NCBI RefSeq assembly: GCF_003814705.1
Contig: NZ_RKRA01000001.1
Coordinates: 1,116,001 to 1,180,000, forward strand
Length of the DNA: 64,000 nt
From: Georgenia muralis
Lineage (GTDB): Bacteria > Actinomycetota > Actinomycetes > Actinomycetales > Actinomycetaceae
Direction: 5' to 3'
In this document: positions 8,951-63,959 of the stretch, one piece after another
Numbering within the stretch: the first letter of the stretch is position 1
Layout: each line of letters opens with the position of its first letter
The notes under the pieces: model-generated
What the model saw: only the letters and a program-made list of their open reading frames with translations
Told to the model about the DNA's origin: nothing
Database searches by the model: none
Program-made: the position numbers and the translations under genes

Positions 8951-10056
8951 GGGACGACGGCGACGCCGTCCGGGTCCATCCGCACCTGGACCTGGGCGCC
9001 GACCTCCGTGGCGGTGGTGACGGCGGTGGCCCGCTCGCCCCCGGGCAGGGCGACGTCGACCTCCGTGCGGCCGCGGACGAACCGGGTCGCGAGGACCGGG
9101 ACCACGACGTCGTCGCCCCCGGCCCACCCCTCGCCGGTGACGACGTGGAGGGCGGCGGGACCCAGGCCGACCAGCACGTGACCGTGCGGGGCCGCGGGAC
9201 CCGGGGCCTCACCGGGCGCGGCGGCGGGGAGCGGGACCTCGCCCAGCCCGGTCCGGACGACCGCGCCGCGGACCTGCCCGGGAAGGAAGGGTCCGTAGCC
9301 GAGGAACCCGGCCACCTCCTGGTTCACCGGCCGGCGCCACAGCCGGGCCGGGCGGTCCACCTGCACCAGGCGCCCGTCCACCATGACCGCCACCCGGTCG
9401 GCCACGGTGAAGGCCTCGTCGTGGTCGTGCGTGACGTACAGGGCGGTGGTGCCGGTGGCGCGGAGGATGTCGTGGAGCTCGCCGGTGAGCCGTTCGCGCA
9501 GGCCGCGGTCGAGCGCCGACAGCGGCTCGTCGAGCAGGAGCAGCGCCGGCGCGGGCGCGAGGGCGCGGGCCAGGGCCACACGCTGGGCCTGCCCGCCGGA
9601 CAGGGTCGCCACCGACCGGTCGCCGTACCCGGCCAGGCCGACCAGCTCGAGGAGCTCGGCGACCCGCTCGGCGCGGCGGGCCCGCGGCAGGCCGTCGAGG
9701 CCGTAGCCGACGTTGCCCGCCACCGTGCGGTGCGGGAAGAGCTGGCCCTCCTGGAACATCAGGCCGAAGCCGCGCCGGTGGACCGGTACGCCCGTGACGT
9801 CCTGGCCGGCCCAGGTGATGTCACCGGCCGCCACGGGCTCGAGACCGGCCACGGCGCGCAGGAGGGACGACTTGCCCGACCCCGAAGGACCCAGGAGGGC
9901 CACGACCTCGCGGGCCGCGACGTCGAGGTCCACCGCGTCGACCGCCGTGGTGGCGACGTACCGCACCACCACCCCGCGCAGCCGCAGGCCGGTGGGATCG
10001 CCTTCGCCGTCCTTGCCCGTCACGACGGGGTCGCCACCGCCGTCCTCGGCCGTCAC
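8932..10056 (-). CDS. thiQ: thiamine ABC transporter ATP-binding protein (ThiQ-like)
   Basis: A 374-residue ABC ATPase. Walker A is GPSGSGKS near residue 57, the signature is LSGGQAQRVALARAL and Walker B is ALLLLDEPLSAL, followed by the switch His in YVTHDHDEAFTVADR. A C-terminal extension of about 120 residues looks like the TOBE-type domain of CUT1/iron/thiamine importers. It should power import through the adjacent permease. The GTG at 10056 overlaps the permease stop as GTGA, so the two are coupled. The first 25 residues carry a short GDPVVT repeat that may be dispensable. Substrate assignment rests on the TPP riboswitch at the head of the operon. Confidence 0.9.
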   Translation of the reverse strand: MTAEDGGGDPVVTGKDGEGDPTGLRLRGVVVRYVATTAVDAVDLDVAAREVVALLGPSGSGKSSLLRAVAGLEPVAAGDITWAGQDVTGVPVHRRGFGLMFQEGQLFPHRTVAGNVGYGLDGLPRARRAERVAELLELVGLAGYGDRSVATLSGGQAQRVALARALAPAPALLLLDEPLSALDRGLRERLTGELHDILRATGTTALYVTHDHDEAFTVADRVAVMVDGRLVQVDRPARLWRRPVNQEVAGFLGYGPFLPGQVRGAVVRTGLGEVPLPAAAPGEAPGPAAPHGHVLVGLGPAALHVVTGEGWAGGDDVVVPVLATRFVRGRTEVDVALPGGERATAVTTATEVGAQVQVRMDPDGVAVVPQTASS

Positions 10057-11753
10057 CACGGGGTCGCCTCCGCCGTGCGGAGCCGTTCGGCGAGCGCCAT
10101 GACGGAGGCGGTGAGCACCGCCAGCACCACCGCCGCCGCCATGGCCATGCCGTAGCTCTCCGCGCCGGGGCGGCCGATGAGCCGGAAGATCACCACCGGG
10201 AGGGTGGGCCGGTCGGGCCGGGCGAGGAACGACGTCGCCCCGAACTCCCCGAGGGAGATGGCGAAGGCGAACCCGACCGCCAGGCCGAGGGAGCGCACGA
10301 GGAACGGCCCCTCGACGGTGGCCAGCACGCGGGCCGGGCCGGCGCCGAGCGTGGCCGCGGCCTCGCGCAGCCGCGGGTCGATCGCCCGCAGCACCGGCAG
10401 GACGGTGCGCACGACCATCGGCACGGCGACGACGGCCTGCGCGACGGGCACGAGGACGAGGGAGGAGCGCAGGTCCAGCGGGGGCCGGTCGAGGGTGATG
10501 AGGAAGCCGAACCCGACCGTGACGGCCGAGACCCCCAGCGGCAGCATGAACAGGGCGTCGAGGACGCCGACGGCGCGGCGTCCCGACCGCGAGCGCGGCC
10601 GACGGGAGACGACGAGGGCCACCAGGGTGCCGACGACGACGGCGAGGACGGTGGCGTCGACGGCCACGCGCACGGAGTTCGCGGTCGCCTCCCACACCGT
10701 GACGCTCAGCGTGCCGGGCCCGCCCGTGGTGCCGAGGTTGACGTAGTTCTCCAGGCCCCACCCCCCGCCGGGGGTGCGGAAGGACCGCACGAGGAGGCCG
10801 AGCAGCGGCAGCGCCAGGAGCCCGGCGACGACGACCGCGGTGACCCCGGCGGGCAGGAGGTCCGGCCCGGGCCGCCACCGCCCGCGAGGGTCCCGCTCGA
10901 GGACCCGGAGGGGGTGGGCCGCCGCCGCGGCGGCGCCCAGCCGCAGCGCACGCTCCTGGCCGGCGCGGGTGCGGGCGGCCACCCCCAGGGCGAGCGCGAC
11001 GACGAGGAGCTGGACGACCGAGAGGACCGCGGCGGCCCGCAGGTCGAGGAACTGGGTGGTCTGGACCCAGATCTCGGTCTCGATCGTGCCGAACCTCAGA
11101 CCGCCGAGGACGAGCACCACCCCGAACGCGGTCGCGCAGAACAGGAACACCACCGACGCCGCGGACGCGATCGCCGGGGCCAGGGCGGGCAGGGTGACCG
11201 TGCGCAGCGCCCGGGCCGGCGAGGCGCCCAGCGCTCGGGCGGCCTGCTCGGCGCGCGGGTCCAGACGCTCCCACATCCCCCCGACCGTGCGCACGACGAC
11301 GGCGTAGTTGAAGAACACCAGGGCCAGGACGATCGCGGCGAAGGTGCCGTCGAGGCCGAGGAACCCCAGCGGGCCGCCCTCGGCGAGCAGCGACCGGAAG
11401 GCCACGCCGACGACGACGGTGGGCAGGACGAACGGGACGGTGACGAACGCCCGGAGCGCGGCGCGGCCGGGGAAGCGGGTGCGGTAGAGAAGGTAGGCGC
11501 CGGGGACGCCCAGGAGCAGGGAGCCGGCCGTGCCGAGCGCCGCCTGGGCGAGGGTGAGGCCGAGGATGCGCCACGTGCGGGGCCGGGAGAAGACCTCCGC
11601 GAACCCGCCGAGGTCGACCCCGCCGTCGGCGACGAAGCCCCGGCCCACCAGGGCCAGGACCGGCCAGGCGAAGAACACCGCGAGGAACGCCAGCGGCACG
11701 GCGGCCGCGAGCGCCCAGAGGGGTCCCGCCCAGGTCGGGCGCGTCGTCGTCAC
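10053..11753 (-). CDS. thiP: thiamine ABC transporter permease (ThiP-like, fused two-domain)
   Basis: A 566-residue polytopic permease with two tandem binding-protein-dependent transport domains. Each half holds an EAA-type loop: QAARALGASPARALRTVTLP in the first half and REAAATLGAGPARVLATVEG in the second. The fused arrangement and length are those of ThiP and related ferric or thiamine permeases. It should form the membrane channel with the ThiQ-like ATPase. The GTG start at 11753 lies one base after the stop of the binding-protein gene, and its stop overlaps the ATPase start. Thiamine specificity is inferred from the upstream riboswitch. Confidence 0.9.
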   Translation of the reverse strand: MTTTRPTWAGPLWALAAAVPLAFLAVFFAWPVLALVGRGFVADGGVDLGGFAEVFSRPRTWRILGLTLAQAALGTAGSLLLGVPGAYLLYRTRFPGRAALRAFVTVPFVLPTVVVGVAFRSLLAEGGPLGFLGLDGTFAAIVLALVFFNYAVVVRTVGGMWERLDPRAEQAARALGASPARALRTVTLPALAPAIASAASVVFLFCATAFGVVLVLGGLRFGTIETEIWVQTTQFLDLRAAAVLSVVQLLVVALALGVAARTRAGQERALRLGAAAAAAHPLRVLERDPRGRWRPGPDLLPAGVTAVVVAGLLALPLLGLLVRSFRTPGGGWGLENYVNLGTTGGPGTLSVTVWEATANSVRVAVDATVLAVVVGTLVALVVSRRPRSRSGRRAVGVLDALFMLPLGVSAVTVGFGFLITLDRPPLDLRSSLVLVPVAQAVVAVPMVVRTVLPVLRAIDPRLREAAATLGAGPARVLATVEGPFLVRSLGLAVGFAFAISLGEFGATSFLARPDRPTLPVVIFRLIGRPGAESYGMAMAAAVVLAVLTASVMALAERLRTAEATPW

Positions 11754-60175: not shown

Positions 60176-61564
60176 GTGGTTGAGGACGACGCGCTGGCCA
60201 GGCAGGCGGCCGACCCCGGCACCCCGCTGGCCACGCTCCAGGACCTCGCCGCGCACCACCCCCGGCTCCGGCCCGCGATCGCCGCCAACCCGGCGACCTA
60301 CCCCGATCTGCTTCAGTGGCTCGGGCGCCTCGGCGACCCCGACGTCGACGCGGCCCTGGCCGCCCGGGGCAGGCCCACGACGACCGCCGAGTACCCCGCC
60401 GTCCCCGCGGCACCACCGGCGCAGGAACCGGCGCAGGAACCGGCGCAGGAACCGGCGCAGGAGCCGGCGCAGGAGGAGCCGTACACCGAGGTGCTGCCGG
60501 CAGCGAGCGCTCCCGCGTCGCCCCCGCCGGTCATCCCGCCGGCCGCGGTGACCCCACGTCCGGAGGGCCCCCGGCGCACCTCCGTCATGGGTCGCACGGG
60601 CCCCGGCCGGCCGCCCGCCGCGGCGCCGCCCCTCGGCGCCGCGAGCCCGGGCGGCCCACCGACGGTTGCCGCGCCCGCCGCTGCCACACCGTCCGGTGCC
60701 GCAGCCCTGGGTGTGGGCTCCGACCCGGACCGAGGCGGCGCGGCACGGCGCGCGTGGGCCCTCGTCGCCCTCGCGGTCGTCCTGGCGCTCGCCCTGGTCT
60801 GGGCACTGACGCAGCGGTCACCGGACCCCGGCCCGACGTCCGCACCCACCAGCGGCGCCACGGCCGGAGCCACGGCCAGCCCCACGGCCCCGGACACCGC
60901 AGCGCCCACGACAGGCGCGCCGGAGGACGGCGCCGAGGCGATCCAGGCGGCCCGCGAGACCCTCAGCGGGCTGCCCGCCGCCTCCTCCTGCGCGGACCCC
61001 GCGGCAGATGCGGGGGTCTTCGACGCCTTCGCCGCCGCGGCGGCCCCTGACGGCGCGTGGACCGACCCGGCGGACGGGGATGTCGTCCTCGGGGCGCTCA
61101 CCGGGCTGCAGGACACCTGCGGCGCACCTCACGCCGTGGCGGTCAGCGACGCCCTGGCCGACGGCTCGCCGGCGATCGTCGCGACCCTCGCGGCCGCCCC
61201 GGACTGGGTCACCGTGGCGCGCCCGGCGCCGCCGGGCGCGCAGCAGCGCTCGAGCTTCGTCAGCCCCTCGGGGAACATCGCCTGCAGCCTCGGGGGCTCG
61301 GCGACCTGCACGATCAACGACCGGACGTTCGCTGACCCGGCGACGTGCGGTCCTGGGCCCGTCACCCTCGTGGTCGGGCTCGGCGGCGACGCCCGGAGCG
61401 ACTGCGCAGCCACCCCGGCGGCGGGCAACGGCACGCTGGAGTACGGCCAGTCGGCCACGTCCGGACGGTTCGCCTGCACGAGCGAGGAGAGCGGCGTCAC
61501 GTGCTGGTCGACCCTGTCCGGGCGCGGCTTCACCGTGGCCCGAGCGGCGATCCAGACCTTCTGA
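60176..61564 (+). CDS. LRV-domain membrane protein with C-terminal SPSGNIAC (DUF6636-like) domain
   Basis: A 462-residue protein. Residues 5-65 are an LRV-like domain (AADPGTPLATLQDLAAHHPR, then AIAANPATYPDLLQWLGRLG) matching the N-terminus of the gene at 45371. A QEPA repeat and a Pro/Ala-rich linker follow, then one membrane helix near 195-215 (AWALVALAVVLALALVWAL), a Thr/Ala stalk, and an outer domain. Its end, FVSPSGNIACSLGG with paired cysteines and ESGVTCWSTLSGRGF, resembles DUF6636. Function unknown. GTG start follows GGGAGGAG; TAGGGT near 60141 is a possible -10. Confidence 0.8.
   Translation: MVEDDALARQAADPGTPLATLQDLAAHHPRLRPAIAANPATYPDLLQWLGRLGDPDVDAALAARGRPTTTAEYPAVPAAPPAQEPAQEPAQEPAQEPAQEEPYTEVLPAASAPASPPPVIPPAAVTPRPEGPRRTSVMGRTGPGRPPAAAPPLGAASPGGPPTVAAPAAATPSGAAALGVGSDPDRGGAARRAWALVALAVVLALALVWALTQRSPDPGPTSAPTSGATAGATASPTAPDTAAPTTGAPEDGAEAIQAARETLSGLPAASSCADPAADAGVFDAFAAAAAPDGAWTDPADGDVVLGALTGLQDTCGAPHAVAVSDALADGSPAIVATLAAAPDWVTVARPAPPGAQQRSSFVSPSGNIACSLGGSATCTINDRTFADPATCGPGPVTLVVGLGGDARSDCAATPAAGNGTLEYGQSATSGRFACTSEESGVTCWSTLSGRGFTVARAAIQTF
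60418..60470 (+). repeat. 12-bp in-frame repeat encoding QEPA
   Basis: Four to five copies of a 12-base unit GCGCAGGAACCG (or GAGCCG) give repeated AQEP in the linker of the LRV protein. The unit is short and nearly identical, so slippage is likely. Confidence 0.8.
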
Positions 61565-61567
61565 CGC

Positions 61568-62437
61568 TCAGCGCCCGGCCGCCCACTGCCGGATCCCGGC
61601 GGCGACGGCCTCGGCGTACCGCCGACGGCCCTCCTCCGACTCGATGAGCTCGGCCTCCCCGGGGTTGCGCATCTCCGCGAGCTCGAGGAGCACGGCCGGG
61701 CGCTCGGCCCAGTTCAGCGTGCCGAGGTCCGCCCGTTCGCTCAGGGCACCGGGGTAGCTCGACGACGGCGCGAAACCGGCGGCACCGAGAGCGGCGAGCA
61801 GGTCGGCCGCGAGCGCACGGGAGGGCTCCGCCTGGGCGTCGTTGAGCGGGGGCTCGGAGACGATCGCGAAGTAGCCGCGCACCTCGGGGTCCGCGGCGCC
61901 GTCGGCGTGGATCGAGACCAGCACGTCGGCGCCGGCCCTCCCGGCCGACTGCCCGCGCTCGTCGACGCACGGCCCGATCCCCGAGTCGTCCTCGCGGGTG
62001 AGGGTGACGGTGGCTCCGTCGGCGCGCAGGATCTCGCGCGCACGCAGGGCGACGTCGAGGGTGAACGCGTGCTCGGGGTAGCCCGACGCCGTGCTGGAGC
62101 CCACGGTGTTGCAGGCCTTGCTCCCGCCCCGGCCGTCGCCGACGGGGGCGTTGATCTGGGCCGGTGCGGCCGCGTTGCCGCCGTTGTGGCCGGGGTCGAG
62201 CACCACGTGGAGGTCGGCCAGCGGGCCCGGCTCCTCGGTGGGCGCGGGCGTGGCGGACGACGGCGGGTCGGGCGTCGCCGCGGGTCCGGCCGGCGGGCCT
62301 GGCGCGAGGTCGGGCGGGCGTGTACCGAGGTCGAGCGGACCCGCGCCGAGGACGAGACCGAGGGCGGCGACCGCCAGGACGGCGAGCGCGCCGAGAGCCA
62401 CCAGGAGGGAGCGCACACGAGCCGACACGCGGCCCAT
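61568..62437 (-). CDS. exported N-acetylmuramoyl-L-alanine amidase (Amidase_3)
   Basis: A 289-residue enzyme. An N-terminal signal or anchor helix (SLLVALGALAVLAVAALGLVLGA near 10-32) and a Pro-rich linker lead into the catalytic domain: HVVLDPGHNGGN near 75-86 with the first zinc His, VLVSIHADGAADP near 172 with another zinc His, and LELAEMRN with the catalytic Glu near 254. The usual zinc-binding Glu lies in PEHAFTLDVAL. It cleaves the bond between MurNAc and L-Ala in peptidoglycan. ATG at 62437; a terminator separates it from the peptide gene upstream. It converges with the LRV gene, three bases apart. Confidence 0.9.
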   Translation of the reverse strand: MGRVSARVRSLLVALGALAVLAVAALGLVLGAGPLDLGTRPPDLAPGPPAGPAATPDPPSSATPAPTEEPGPLADLHVVLDPGHNGGNAAAPAQINAPVGDGRGGSKACNTVGSSTASGYPEHAFTLDVALRAREILRADGATVTLTREDDSGIGPCVDERGQSAGRAGADVLVSIHADGAADPEVRGYFAIVSEPPLNDAQAEPSRALAADLLAALGAAGFAPSSSYPGALSERADLGTLNWAERPAVLLELAEMRNPGEAELIESEEGRRRYAEAVAAGIRQWAAGR

Positions 62438-62515
62438 CCTCACACCGCGACGGCCACCGGTGCGCGCGGAAGCGACGCGCGCCACCGCGCGCGGGAACGG
62501 GGACCGCACGCACGA

Positions 62516-62550
62516 ACGTGGTGCGGGCGCTCAGCGCACCCGCACCACGT
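62516..62550 (-). terminator. strong terminator of the small exported peptide gene
   Basis: A perfect 12-bp stem: ACGTGGTGCGGG at 62516-62527 and its complement at 62539-62550, with an 11-base loop that can itself fold (GCGC/GCGC). It lies 31 bases after the stop of the peptide gene at 62581, and before the amidase gene on the same strand. This makes the peptide gene a unit of its own. Confidence 0.75.
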
Positions 62551-62580
62551 GTACCGGTCCGGCCGTGGCCGGCCGGCTGA

Positions 62581-62718
62581 CTACTTCGCGCCGGGCGTCG
62601 GCCAGCACATCACGCACATCGTGCGCATGGCACCGTCGGACGCGGCCGTGGCAGGCGCCACCGACACGCCGACGAGGGCCGCCGCCAGGAGCACGCTGGC
62701 ACCGAGCTTCTTGATCAT
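62581..62718 (-). CDS. 45-aa exported Cys-containing peptide precursor
   Basis: A 45-residue open frame. A classical signal peptide (KK, then LGASVLLAAALVGVSVAPATA) ends in an Ala-x-Ala site, predicting a mature peptide of about 20 residues that contains MRTMCVMCWPTPGAK: two cysteines in a CxxC spacing, a Trp and a Pro pair. GGGGAG precedes the ATG. It has its own 12-bp terminator and lies divergent from a two-HTH regulator. This setting suggests a secreted signal or bioactive peptide, which is inference; no known family was recognised. A small lipid or toxin role cannot be excluded. Confidence 0.65.
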   Translation of the reverse strand: MIKKLGASVLLAAALVGVSVAPATAASDGAMRTMCVMCWPTPGAK

Positions 62719-62984
62719 TGTTGTCTCCCCTCCCCGAGGTACATGAGGCCCACGGCCTCCTTCCCTGATCATCGGGCCAAGAGCGGTCGGGAACTGCACC
62801 AGGGCCGTGGCAACTTCCGGTCATGGCACAAAGTTCCCCCACATCTCCGTATCGTGGTGGGCCCTCCGCCCTCCATGGGTGCCCCCAGGCCGGCACCAGG
62901 AGCCACGCGGGTCGACGACCTCCTCACCGCGACTGCCGACCGATCCCCGTACGATCGGGACCGGAAGCGCACGTCAGGAGAGCC
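62719..62984. promoter_or_regulatory. divergent control region between the peptide and its regulator
   Basis: A 266-base spacer. Visible symmetry: GGAACT (62789-62794) and AGTTCC (62832-62837); AACTT (62812-62816) and AAGTT (62831-62835); and CCGATC-N7-GATCGG at 62940-62958. The last contains TACGAT (62950-62955), a likely -10 of the regulator gene, so it could be its autoregulatory operator. The minus-strand promoter of the peptide is not clear; GATGAT near 62770 is a weak -10. Confidence 0.5.
62940..62958 (+). promoter_or_regulatory. 19-bp dyad overlapping the -10 of the TrmB/LuxR regulator
   Basis: CCGATC, seven bases, GATCGG. The dyad is perfect in its arms and lies 26 bases before the ATG. 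The hexamer TACGAT inside it matches TANNNT. An autorepression site is a reasonable inference. Confidence 0.5.
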
Positions 62985-63959
62985 ATGTTCGAGCCACTCG
63001 GTCTCGATGAGACCGCGATCGCGGTCTACCGCGCGCTCCTGACGACGCCCGGGCTCAGTCCGCAGGGCCTCACGGTCGCCACCGGTCTCAACCCCGGCCA
63101 GGTGCACGCGGTGCTGGACCTCCTGGAGGAGAAGGGCTTCCTCCGGCGCTCGCACAACGACCCGGGTGAGCTGCGCACCGAGTCGCCGCTGGTCGCCTTC
63201 GAACGCCTCATCGGACGCCACGAGGAGGTGCTGCACCGCTCGCAGGAGCAGCTCAGCTCGATGCGGGCGGGCTCGGCCGAGCTGGTGGAGGAGTACCACC
63301 GTGTGCTCGAGCGCACGCGCCTCGGCCAGATCGAGCACATCGTGGCGACCGACGAGATCGTCGCCCGGGTCCTCGAGCTGGGACAGAACGCGGAGCGGTC
63401 CGTTGATTCCCTGCTGACGACGTCGCCCACCCAGCACCAGATCGAGCAGGCGAAGAGCGACGAGGCCGCCATGCTCGCCCGTGGCATGCGCCTCCGCTCG
63501 ATCATTCCGGCTGCGGGCCGGCACGTCGATGGCGTCGTCGAATACGCCGCTTGGCTACAGGAACGCGGCGGCGCCGCCCGGACGGTGCTGTCGGTGCCGA
63601 ATCAGACGCTGCTCTACGACGGCGAGGTCGCCGTCCTCATGTTCAACCACGCCGACTTCACCCGCGGGGCCATCGTCCTGTCCGCGCCGGGAGCCGTGGT
63701 CGCCCTCCAGTCCCTCTTCGACCTGCTGTGGGAGTCGGGCACGGACCTCGTCGAGCCGCCCAGCCTGGACGAGCTCCGGCCGGAGGAGCGCGAGCTGCTC
63801 CAGCTCCTCGGCCGCGGGATGAAGGACGAGGCCGTGGCACGCGCCCTCGGCATCTCCATCCGCACGGTCCGGCGGATGATCAACATCCTCAGCGAGCGGC
63901 TCGACGCACCGAGCCGGTTCACCCTCGGGGCGCGCGCCCACGAGCGCGGCCTCATCTAG
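62985..63959 (+). CDS. two-HTH regulator: TrmB-like N-terminus and LuxR-type C-terminus
   Basis: A 324-residue regulator. Residues 1-60 are a TrmB-like winged helix (LGLDETAIAVYRALLTTPGL, then VATGLNPGQVHAVLDLLEEK). A helical linker follows (RHEEVLHRSQEQLSSMRAGS), then a central domain near 115-255 that may bind a ligand. The C-terminal 60 residues are a LuxR-type HTH: LRPEERELLQLLGRGMKDEA and ALGISIRTVRRMINILSERL. Such stand-alone regulators are abundant in actinobacteria. It lacks a receiver domain. CAGGAGAG precedes the ATG. It diverges from a 45-aa exported peptide gene; sensing that peptide is inference. Confidence 0.88.
   Translation: MFEPLGLDETAIAVYRALLTTPGLSPQGLTVATGLNPGQVHAVLDLLEEKGFLRRSHNDPGELRTESPLVAFERLIGRHEEVLHRSQEQLSSMRAGSAELVEEYHRVLERTRLGQIEHIVATDEIVARVLELGQNAERSVDSLLTTSPTQHQIEQAKSDEAAMLARGMRLRSIIPAAGRHVDGVVEYAAWLQERGGAARTVLSVPNQTLLYDGEVAVLMFNHADFTRGAIVLSAPGAVVALQSLFDLLWESGTDLVEPPSLDELRPEERELLQLLGRGMKDEAVARALGISIRTVRRMINILSERLDAPSRFTLGARAHERGLI

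Follow-up and report, generated by a model that had tools for sequence, protein, structure and literature searches.

A gene pair at one end of the window, the 64,000-nucleotide stretch of Georgenia muralis DNA analysed here, has the anatomy of a peptide signalling system. One gene encodes a small peptide precursor that carries a predicted signal peptide. The other is divergently transcribed and encodes a regulator with a TrmB-type winged helix and a LuxR-type helix-turn-helix (HTH). Together they probably make up a peptide-pheromone circuit whose receptor is cytosolic; it would work like the RRNPP systems of Firmicutes through an unrelated receptor protein. Similar pairs are found in Streptomyces and other families, and we lean towards a joint reading of all the data. 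In this reading, Actinomycetota, chiefly Streptomyces, would signal with ribosomal peptide pheromones that belong to a large and so far undescribed family. Exported, often tandem precursors would release Trp-containing peptides of 4–7 residues (SINWD, VIGWD, DAGWQ, GAGWD, TTVWE, DLPWT, SWDWPK and, in the window, a CxxCW form). Every peptide would have a dedicated TrmB-LuxR receptor that reads it inside the cell, and a genome would encode up to at least 14 such receptors, some near biosynthesis-like genes. Most of the evidential weight is carried by family-wide counts, controls and repeats.

The source genome of the window is actinobacterial and 4.14 Mb in size. The precursor of 45 amino acids (aa) is encoded on the reverse strand at 62581–62718, begins with ATG and reads MIKKLGASVLLAAALVGVSVAPATAASDGAMRTMCVMCWPTPGAK. 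Its ribosome-binding region, with GGGAGGGGAGACAACA ahead of the ATG, occupies 62719–62734 of the same strand. A predicted Sec-type signal peptide (about MIKKLGASVLLAAALVGVSVAPATA) is followed by a mature part of ~20 aa, which contains C-x-x-C-W-P and ends in ASDGAMRTMCVMCWPTPGAK. A preliminary description of this DNA had singled out the open reading frame (ORF) for its signal peptide, its ribosome-binding site, its two Cys and its Trp, and the sequence bears this out. We filtered the whole window for signal-peptide-like ORFs of 30–80 aa, preceded by a ribosome-binding site and with Trp within the last 12 residues. The peptide ORF was the sole one to pass. A somewhat different strict filter, applied to positions 1–62000, passed one additional ORF (10053–10298). 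A GC-rich hairpin predicted by folding lies 3′ of the peptide ORF (62516–62550, reverse strand). It has a stem of 15 bp and a 5-nt loop, and the folding z-score of an 81-nt stretch is −4.6. The hairpin previously described as a 12-bp terminator is real, but it lacks a T-run and so its role as a terminator is putative.

The regulator comprises 324 aa (62985–63959, forward strand). Pfam matches and predicted structure divide it into four parts: an N-terminal winged helix (residues ~1–65), a coiled-coil helix (68–110), a TrmB/PLD-type core (~113–257) and a LuxR/GerE-type HTH (~260–324; 63756–63956, forward strand). At the N-terminus, HTH_24 was matched at 5.6e-08 and TrmB with 25.5 bits, the cut-off being 25.6. 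At the C-terminus, HTH_23 was above its cut-off and GerE reached 22 bits (cut-off 23.5). The C-terminal HTH also matched NarL (3e-10). The core matches TrmB/PLD folds in the predicted structure. The protein combines the TrmB-type N-terminal winged helix with the PLD/sugar-binding-type core of the TrmB family. No receiver, tetratricopeptide repeat (TPR) or autoinducer-binding family is among the best 25 of 27 Pfam matches. This agrees with the earlier account of two DNA-binding domains and no receiver. A named near relative is the regulator of Georgenia subflava, 58% identical to that in the window.

The pair is conserved. The regulator was present in 14 of 39 genomes (E ≤ 1e-10; the window's own counted). 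In 11 of these 14, a divergent signal-peptide ORF with a CxxCW end lies ~110–270 bp upstream; these are the window, eight more members of the genus, G015 and G022. The remaining three (G027, G031 and G036) have distant regulators and no such ORF. In the Georgenia clade, all 10 genomes examined, including that of the window, have the pair. Four genomes of a second genus also have it, with regulators 31–32% identical to that of the window. One of the four (G022) was found through its regulator and the other three were chosen because the peptide profile matched them. Recurrence of a small CxxCW ORF divergently beside the regulator was a check proposed in the preliminary description, and the outcome favours the pairing. 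In a quick tree, the CxxCW regulators of the two genera group together as a single clade (SH-aLRT 96), a join that carries a long-branch warning. Residues K4, C35, C38 and W39 are invariant across 13 precursors, the window's counted. Against 200 genomes of the family, the peptide profile gave 13 matches at E < 1e-6, all adjoining the regulator. Of these, 11 had supplied the profile; hence, the independent ones are G089 and G106, with a weak further match in G066 (E 0.008). A wider search across the order (297 genomes) matched 108 genomes besides that of the window at E ≤ 0.05, many weakly. None of the loci fetched from this search (L087, L090–L117) has the regulator within ~1.5 kb. Most of them match the profile chiefly in the signal-peptide part.

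The peptide sequence itself has been maintained. Compared with the nearest relative, sister genome L006, the window's peptide gene shows four synonymous and no non-synonymous codon changes. Across the clade, the ratio of non-synonymous to synonymous change (pN/pS) is low in the signal part (0.44) and in the six CxxCWP columns (0.46) and higher in the linker (0.88) and the tail (1.02). By these codon comparisons the ORF is under purifying selection, a second check on which the earlier proposal depended.

Related regulators are widespread. Profile searches found them in 27 of 396 genomes sampled across the phylum and 72 of 396 genomes of the order (E limit 1e-20 for both), in 28 of the 120 genomes taken from another family (E limit 1e-40) and in 117 of 121 Streptomyces-like genomes (E limit 1e-50), with up to at least 14 matches per genome. 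Per genome, the best 5 candidates were scored for the phylum and order and the best 18 for the Streptomyces-like genomes and the further family; hence, copy numbers are lower bounds. Many of these regulators adjoin a predicted exported precursor of 36–108 aa, mostly divergent, with a short Trp motif that is often in tandem. Pairing is thus more extensive than the preliminary description supposed. Tandem motifs include SINWD (2–4 copies), VIGWD (3–5), DAGWQ (2–3), TTVWE (4), DLPWT (2–3), SWDWPK (2), GVWDWPQQ (4–6) and DPGWQ (2). Other precursors have a single D[ML][GIS]WQ, or FSWG, DNGWW, IWDW and others. Outside the Georgenia clade the cysteines are mostly gone; the short Trp motif, the tandem copies and the pairing remain. 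In the WQ group, conservation is confined to about the last 5–6 residues. Positions −1, −2 and −5 (Q, W and D) are nearly fixed, −3 is mostly G, and residues vary freely from −7 on.

To count pairs we used a strict rule: ATG or GTG start, ribosome-binding site, hydrophobic core, early K or R, W in the last 8 residues and a position ≤1 kb upstream. The filter was fixed after the first precursors were known. Identical regulators were merged, leaving 215 that are distinct. Divergent matches were found for 74 of the 215. By falling band of profile score, the counts are 13/13, 39/78, 4/9, 5/54, 13/40, 0/18 and 0/3, the 13 regulators of the top band being members of the scoring profile. Conversely, codirectional upstream matches were found for 2 of the 215. 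The background was 5 matches in 313.6 kb, both strands counted. One of these five, L051:3163-3312 (ending ..SRTLWPRG), may be a genuine precursor and is situated ~1.5 kb upstream of one of the family's regulators in that locus. As a control we took other GerE regulators from five of the same Streptomyces genomes. With a stretch of similar size, 1 of 30 control loci matched compared with 28 of 76 family loci; several of the 30 are mutual orthologues, judged by their similar scores. The sole control match, L368:1821-2066, is a small secreted protein that resembles a chaplin.

In 40 of the 74 strict divergent precursors, Trp stands next to last. Internal repeats of at least 5 aa, in up to 6 copies, occur in 25, and all 25 repeats contain Trp. 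The motif follows the regulator. When motif class is mapped on a tree of 87 regulators, 15 changes are needed, compared with 51–62 in 300 shuffles. Without the CxxCW and WDW classes (58 rows) there are 13 changes, compared with 27–37 when shuffled. A label will track a tree through relatedness alone; hence, the agreement indicates heritable matching and is not proof of co-adaptation. Before the tree was built, 12 of 98 peptide calls from a relaxed scan were dropped as antisense or implausible (L033, L038, L039, L040, L045, L048, L057, L147, L211, L235, L244 and L253).

Precursors can also lie further off. We looked at 12 wider neighbourhoods of regulators with no near precursor, and four (L300, L301, L302 and L310) have a GAGWD precursor with 4–6 copies at 1.7–1.9 kb. 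GAGWD precursors are at L300:5545-5799, L301:10907-11137, L302:5154-5435, L310:5132-5458 and L346:5238-5564. A FemAB/GNAT-like gene separates precursor from regulator (by Pfam in L300, by annotation in L346). Nearby are an ArsR-type regulator and permease-like genes and, in L346, genes annotated aroA and gpmI. These surroundings recall organoarsenic biosynthesis clusters. No connection between the GAGWD loci and a described arsenic cluster was established; 'bisenarsan' does not occur in the literature matches listed. Other biosynthesis-like neighbours are a ketosynthase and an acyl carrier protein in L354 and a MupA-like monooxygenase in L350.

Plasmids carry such pairs too. The window's regulator has 41 plasmid matches, all in Streptomyces. 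From 89 matching records we chose 14 loci on named Streptomyces plasmids, and 9 contain a precursor. Among these is pCLA1 of S. clavuligerus, with two copies of DLPWT. Seven of the nine precursors are annotated, every one as 'hypothetical protein'. The records label the regulator's relatives 'LuxR C-terminal-related', 'LuxR family' or 'helix-turn-helix' regulator. A phage origin was rejected, the window's regulator having no match in 50,697 phage records.

The spacer between peptide and regulator contains a probable operator. In the window the spacer measures 266 bases, as previously described. Among the dyads also noted there, a 22-bp palindrome, ACTTCCGGTCATGGCACAAAGT (62813–62834), is kept in all 10 members of the Georgenia clade. 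The clade spacers have 0–4 mismatches to the consensus ACTTCCTGCCATGGCAGGAAGT, drawn from the same 10 spacers on which it was scored, and 2000 shuffled spacers have at least 6. In the window, the palindrome centre precedes the peptide start by 105 bp and the regulator start by 161 bp. Across the 10 genomes these distances are 101–109 bp and 97–161 bp, respectively. Hence, the palindrome keeps a steady distance from the peptide gene, to which it appears anchored, and a varying distance from the regulator. In the search for an operator common to the clades, spacers of the second genus and of the WD group showed no copy of the Georgenia palindrome. Some WD-group spacers have a CTGGCACC-like dyad. 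The four second-genus spacers have CCTATAGTAGT, or a one-base variant, in common. This element is likely a −10 region.

Copies of the palindrome also occur away from the locus. In the 10 genomes, a degenerate-palindrome search gave 50 matches, compared with 7 for the backward pattern (palindromes count twice). Every clade spacer was included, as expected. Exact unlinked copies lie at C1:1332478 in the window's genome and in G006, and a copy with 2 mismatches, matched on both strands, lies in G007. All three are 116–135 bp upstream of LanC-like genes. In each of the 10 Georgenia-clade loci examined, the regulator is likewise faced by a convergent LanC-like gene, and in L020 a methyltransferase gene lies in between. 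Upstream of these linked LanC-like genes, degenerate sites are found at 112–149 bp in four of five cases, with 4–9 mismatches of 22. Such sites are individually weak (null 5–17%), and L120 has none at the usual distance. Of the LanC-like proteins of L118:8879-10111, L020:6914-8143, L123, L124, L322, L327 and L330, several have a palindrome ~112–149 bp upstream. Six of eight LanC-like proteins have a conserved R-x-P and then a terminal FW or LW, for example RRVPFFW.

The most likely circuit would run as follows. The precursor would be exported through its Sec signal peptide. Outside the cell, a short C-terminal piece with the conserved Trp, here around CVMCW, would be released. This peptide would re-enter the cell, probably through an oligopeptide ABC transporter, and bind to the TrmB/PLD-type core of the adjoining regulator. 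The regulator would act at the palindrome ahead of the peptide gene, giving feedback, and at like sites ahead of LanC-like genes. Of all the features, the tandem copies hint most strongly at short pieces as the product, as opposed to the whole peptide. The preliminary description had proposed a secreted signal with a cognate cytosolic regulator. The pairing is supported, whereas we infer secretion, cleavage, import, peptide binding, binding of the regulator to the palindrome and the sign of regulation from anatomy and from analogy with RRNPP systems.

Alternatively, the peptide could be a secreted effector (antimicrobial, surface or metal/redox-active through its CxxC), its expression merely controlled by a regulator with another ligand. 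The CxxC is conserved, and the fixed distance from palindrome to peptide gene would suit any regulated gene. However, outside the clade the cysteines are mostly lost while Trp motif, tandem copies and pairing are kept. Moreover, a five-residue unit in up to 6 copies with spacers better fits a released small peptide than a folded effector. We consider this explanation unlikely. Less probable again is that the Georgenia CxxCW peptide is the core of a ribosomally synthesised and post-translationally modified peptide (RiPP), which the products of the adjoining LanC-like and methyltransferase genes would mature while the regulator controls the pathway. The LanC-like gene beside the regulator throughout the clade, the operator-like sites of other LanC-like genes and the intervening methyltransferase gene in L020 all fit this scheme. 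However, the second-genus loci, whose peptides keep CxxCW, yielded no LanC-like gene. An alignment of eight LanC-like proteins has no invariant Cys or His column; hence, canonical zinc ligands are not visible. In addition, a Sec signal peptide would be an unusual lanthipeptide leader. Finally, GC-rich spacers do yield signal-peptide-like ORFs by chance, and the 12 spurious calls of the relaxed scan are a case in point, but we rejected chance or annotation artefacts as highly improbable given the strand asymmetry (74 divergent, 2 codirectional), the single match among control loci, the synonymous-only codon changes, the tandem Trp repeats and the orthologous conservation.

Several observations weigh against a pheromone circuit. 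In the window, the precursor has a single motif copy, Trp at −7 instead of −2, and two Cys; hence, its mature form is not obvious. The second-genus peptides are without a clear AxA cleavage site. The repeat precursors of L276, L310, L346 and L349 do not end in their own motif. That of L349 (1942-2244) has DGFGW three times, away from the C-terminus, and so its processing must differ from the C-terminal type. TrmB cores bind sugars. The window's genome encodes four OppA-type SBP_bac_5 proteins, which would suit the proposed re-import, but such proteins are common and these are unlinked to the locus. Many regulators also appear to be without a partner. Under the strict filter, a divergent W-ended ORF within 1 kb is missing for 39 of 78 regulators scoring 230–400. 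No plausible exported peptide was found upstream of a large Streptomyces TrmB-LuxR group (L021–L057, ~35% identical), and none within ~1.5 kb of the distant regulators of G027, G031 and G036, three genomes of the same order. No accepted precursor was obtained from 8 of the 12 wider neighbourhoods, and 5 of the 14 chosen plasmid loci show none. Six of nine unlinked palindrome places examined (exact or 1–3 mismatches) have no LanC-like gene; these six, with 1–3 mismatches, may be chance. The LanC-like gene next door, with a methyltransferase gene in some genomes, leaves room for a RiPP role.

The closest known parallel to the proposed pheromone circuit is the RRNPP (or RRNPPA) group of Firmicutes and their phages, comprising Rap, Rgg, NprR, PlcR, PrgX and AimR. 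There, a short C-terminal pheromone is imported by Opp and acts in feedback. According to the portion of PMC10075063 (2023) available, the group is defined by TPR receptors, and an exported propeptide adjoins a cytosolic receptor of 250–500 aa. The present pair has the same arrangement. Its regulator, at 324 aa, is within that range, and its precursor, at 45 aa, is within the 10–100 aa of RRNPP propeptides. The latter is divergent and conserved, with a signal-peptide-like N-terminus and predicted export. Conversely, the RRNPP receptor is a TPR protein, whereas here a TrmB/PLD-type core lies between two HTHs. The host is also different, belonging to the Actinomycetota, and precursors of this family often have 2–6 tandem copies of a Trp motif. 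We conclude that, by analogy, the function would be a variant of peptide signalling through an intracellular receptor, with receptor fold, phylum and precursor design far from those of known members.

Other families share parts of the regulator. Archaeal TrmB and TrmBL2 differ from it in that it has an additional C-terminal LuxR-type HTH and a paired, predicted exported peptide; the ligands of archaeal TrmB are sugars. The C-terminal HTH is common to LuxR solos and NarL-type regulators. Unlike LuxR autoinducer receptors, the regulator shows no autoinducer-binding domain, as noted above, and no receiver either. The gamma-butyrolactone systems of Streptomyces also pair a population signal with a regulator near biosynthetic genes. 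However, gamma-butyrolactones are enzyme-made small molecules with TetR-type receptors, whereas the pairs described here would employ a ribosomal peptide.

Excerpts of PMC10075063 describe signals of Actinomycetota as typically small molecules, chiefly gamma-butyrolactones, which for Streptomyces are the sole signals named in the text available of PMC13220807 (2026). Part of PMC4748050 adds 'cyclic or modified peptides' to actinobacterial quorum-sensing signals. The sections available of PMC13118837, on Streptomyces orphan proteins, contain nothing of this kind. None of the literature matches listed describes pairs of a TrmB-LuxR regulator and a peptide; the search did not extend to preprints or to most subscription journals, and an earlier description is possible. 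Passages of PMC11303876 report that a BldK-imported signal oligopeptide triggers the bald cascade, and those of PMC5650626 also describe a BldK-imported signal. The BldK system of Streptomyces coelicolor resembles the proposed circuit in having an imported signal oligopeptide.

If the joint reading is right, antibiotic producers have an extra signalling language with pairs that can be read from sequence. Synthetic pentapeptides would be cheap inducers for silent biosynthetic clusters. There would be a class of peptide receptor with the TrmB fold, and the identity of the BldK developmental peptide would become directly testable. These Trp peptides could include the one that BldK imports in S. 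coelicolor. The mass of the BldK-imported peptide is reportedly near 655 Da, and a Trp pentapeptide would fit in size.

Genes flanking the pair were also considered. Codirectional with the peptide gene and 3′ of it is an N-acetylmuramoyl-L-alanine amidase gene (61568–62509, reverse strand; Amidase_3 by Pfam, Rv3717-like). It is probably a neighbour, not a component of the peptide/regulator system. In the second genus, a zinc-dependent alcohol/threonine-dehydrogenase-like gene lies ~10 bp 3′ of the regulator in the three loci with the gene called (L119, L121 and L122). Elsewhere in the window, a predicted ORF at 60176–61564 contains a run of QEPAQEPAQEPAQEPAQEEP repeats preceding a hydrophobic segment.

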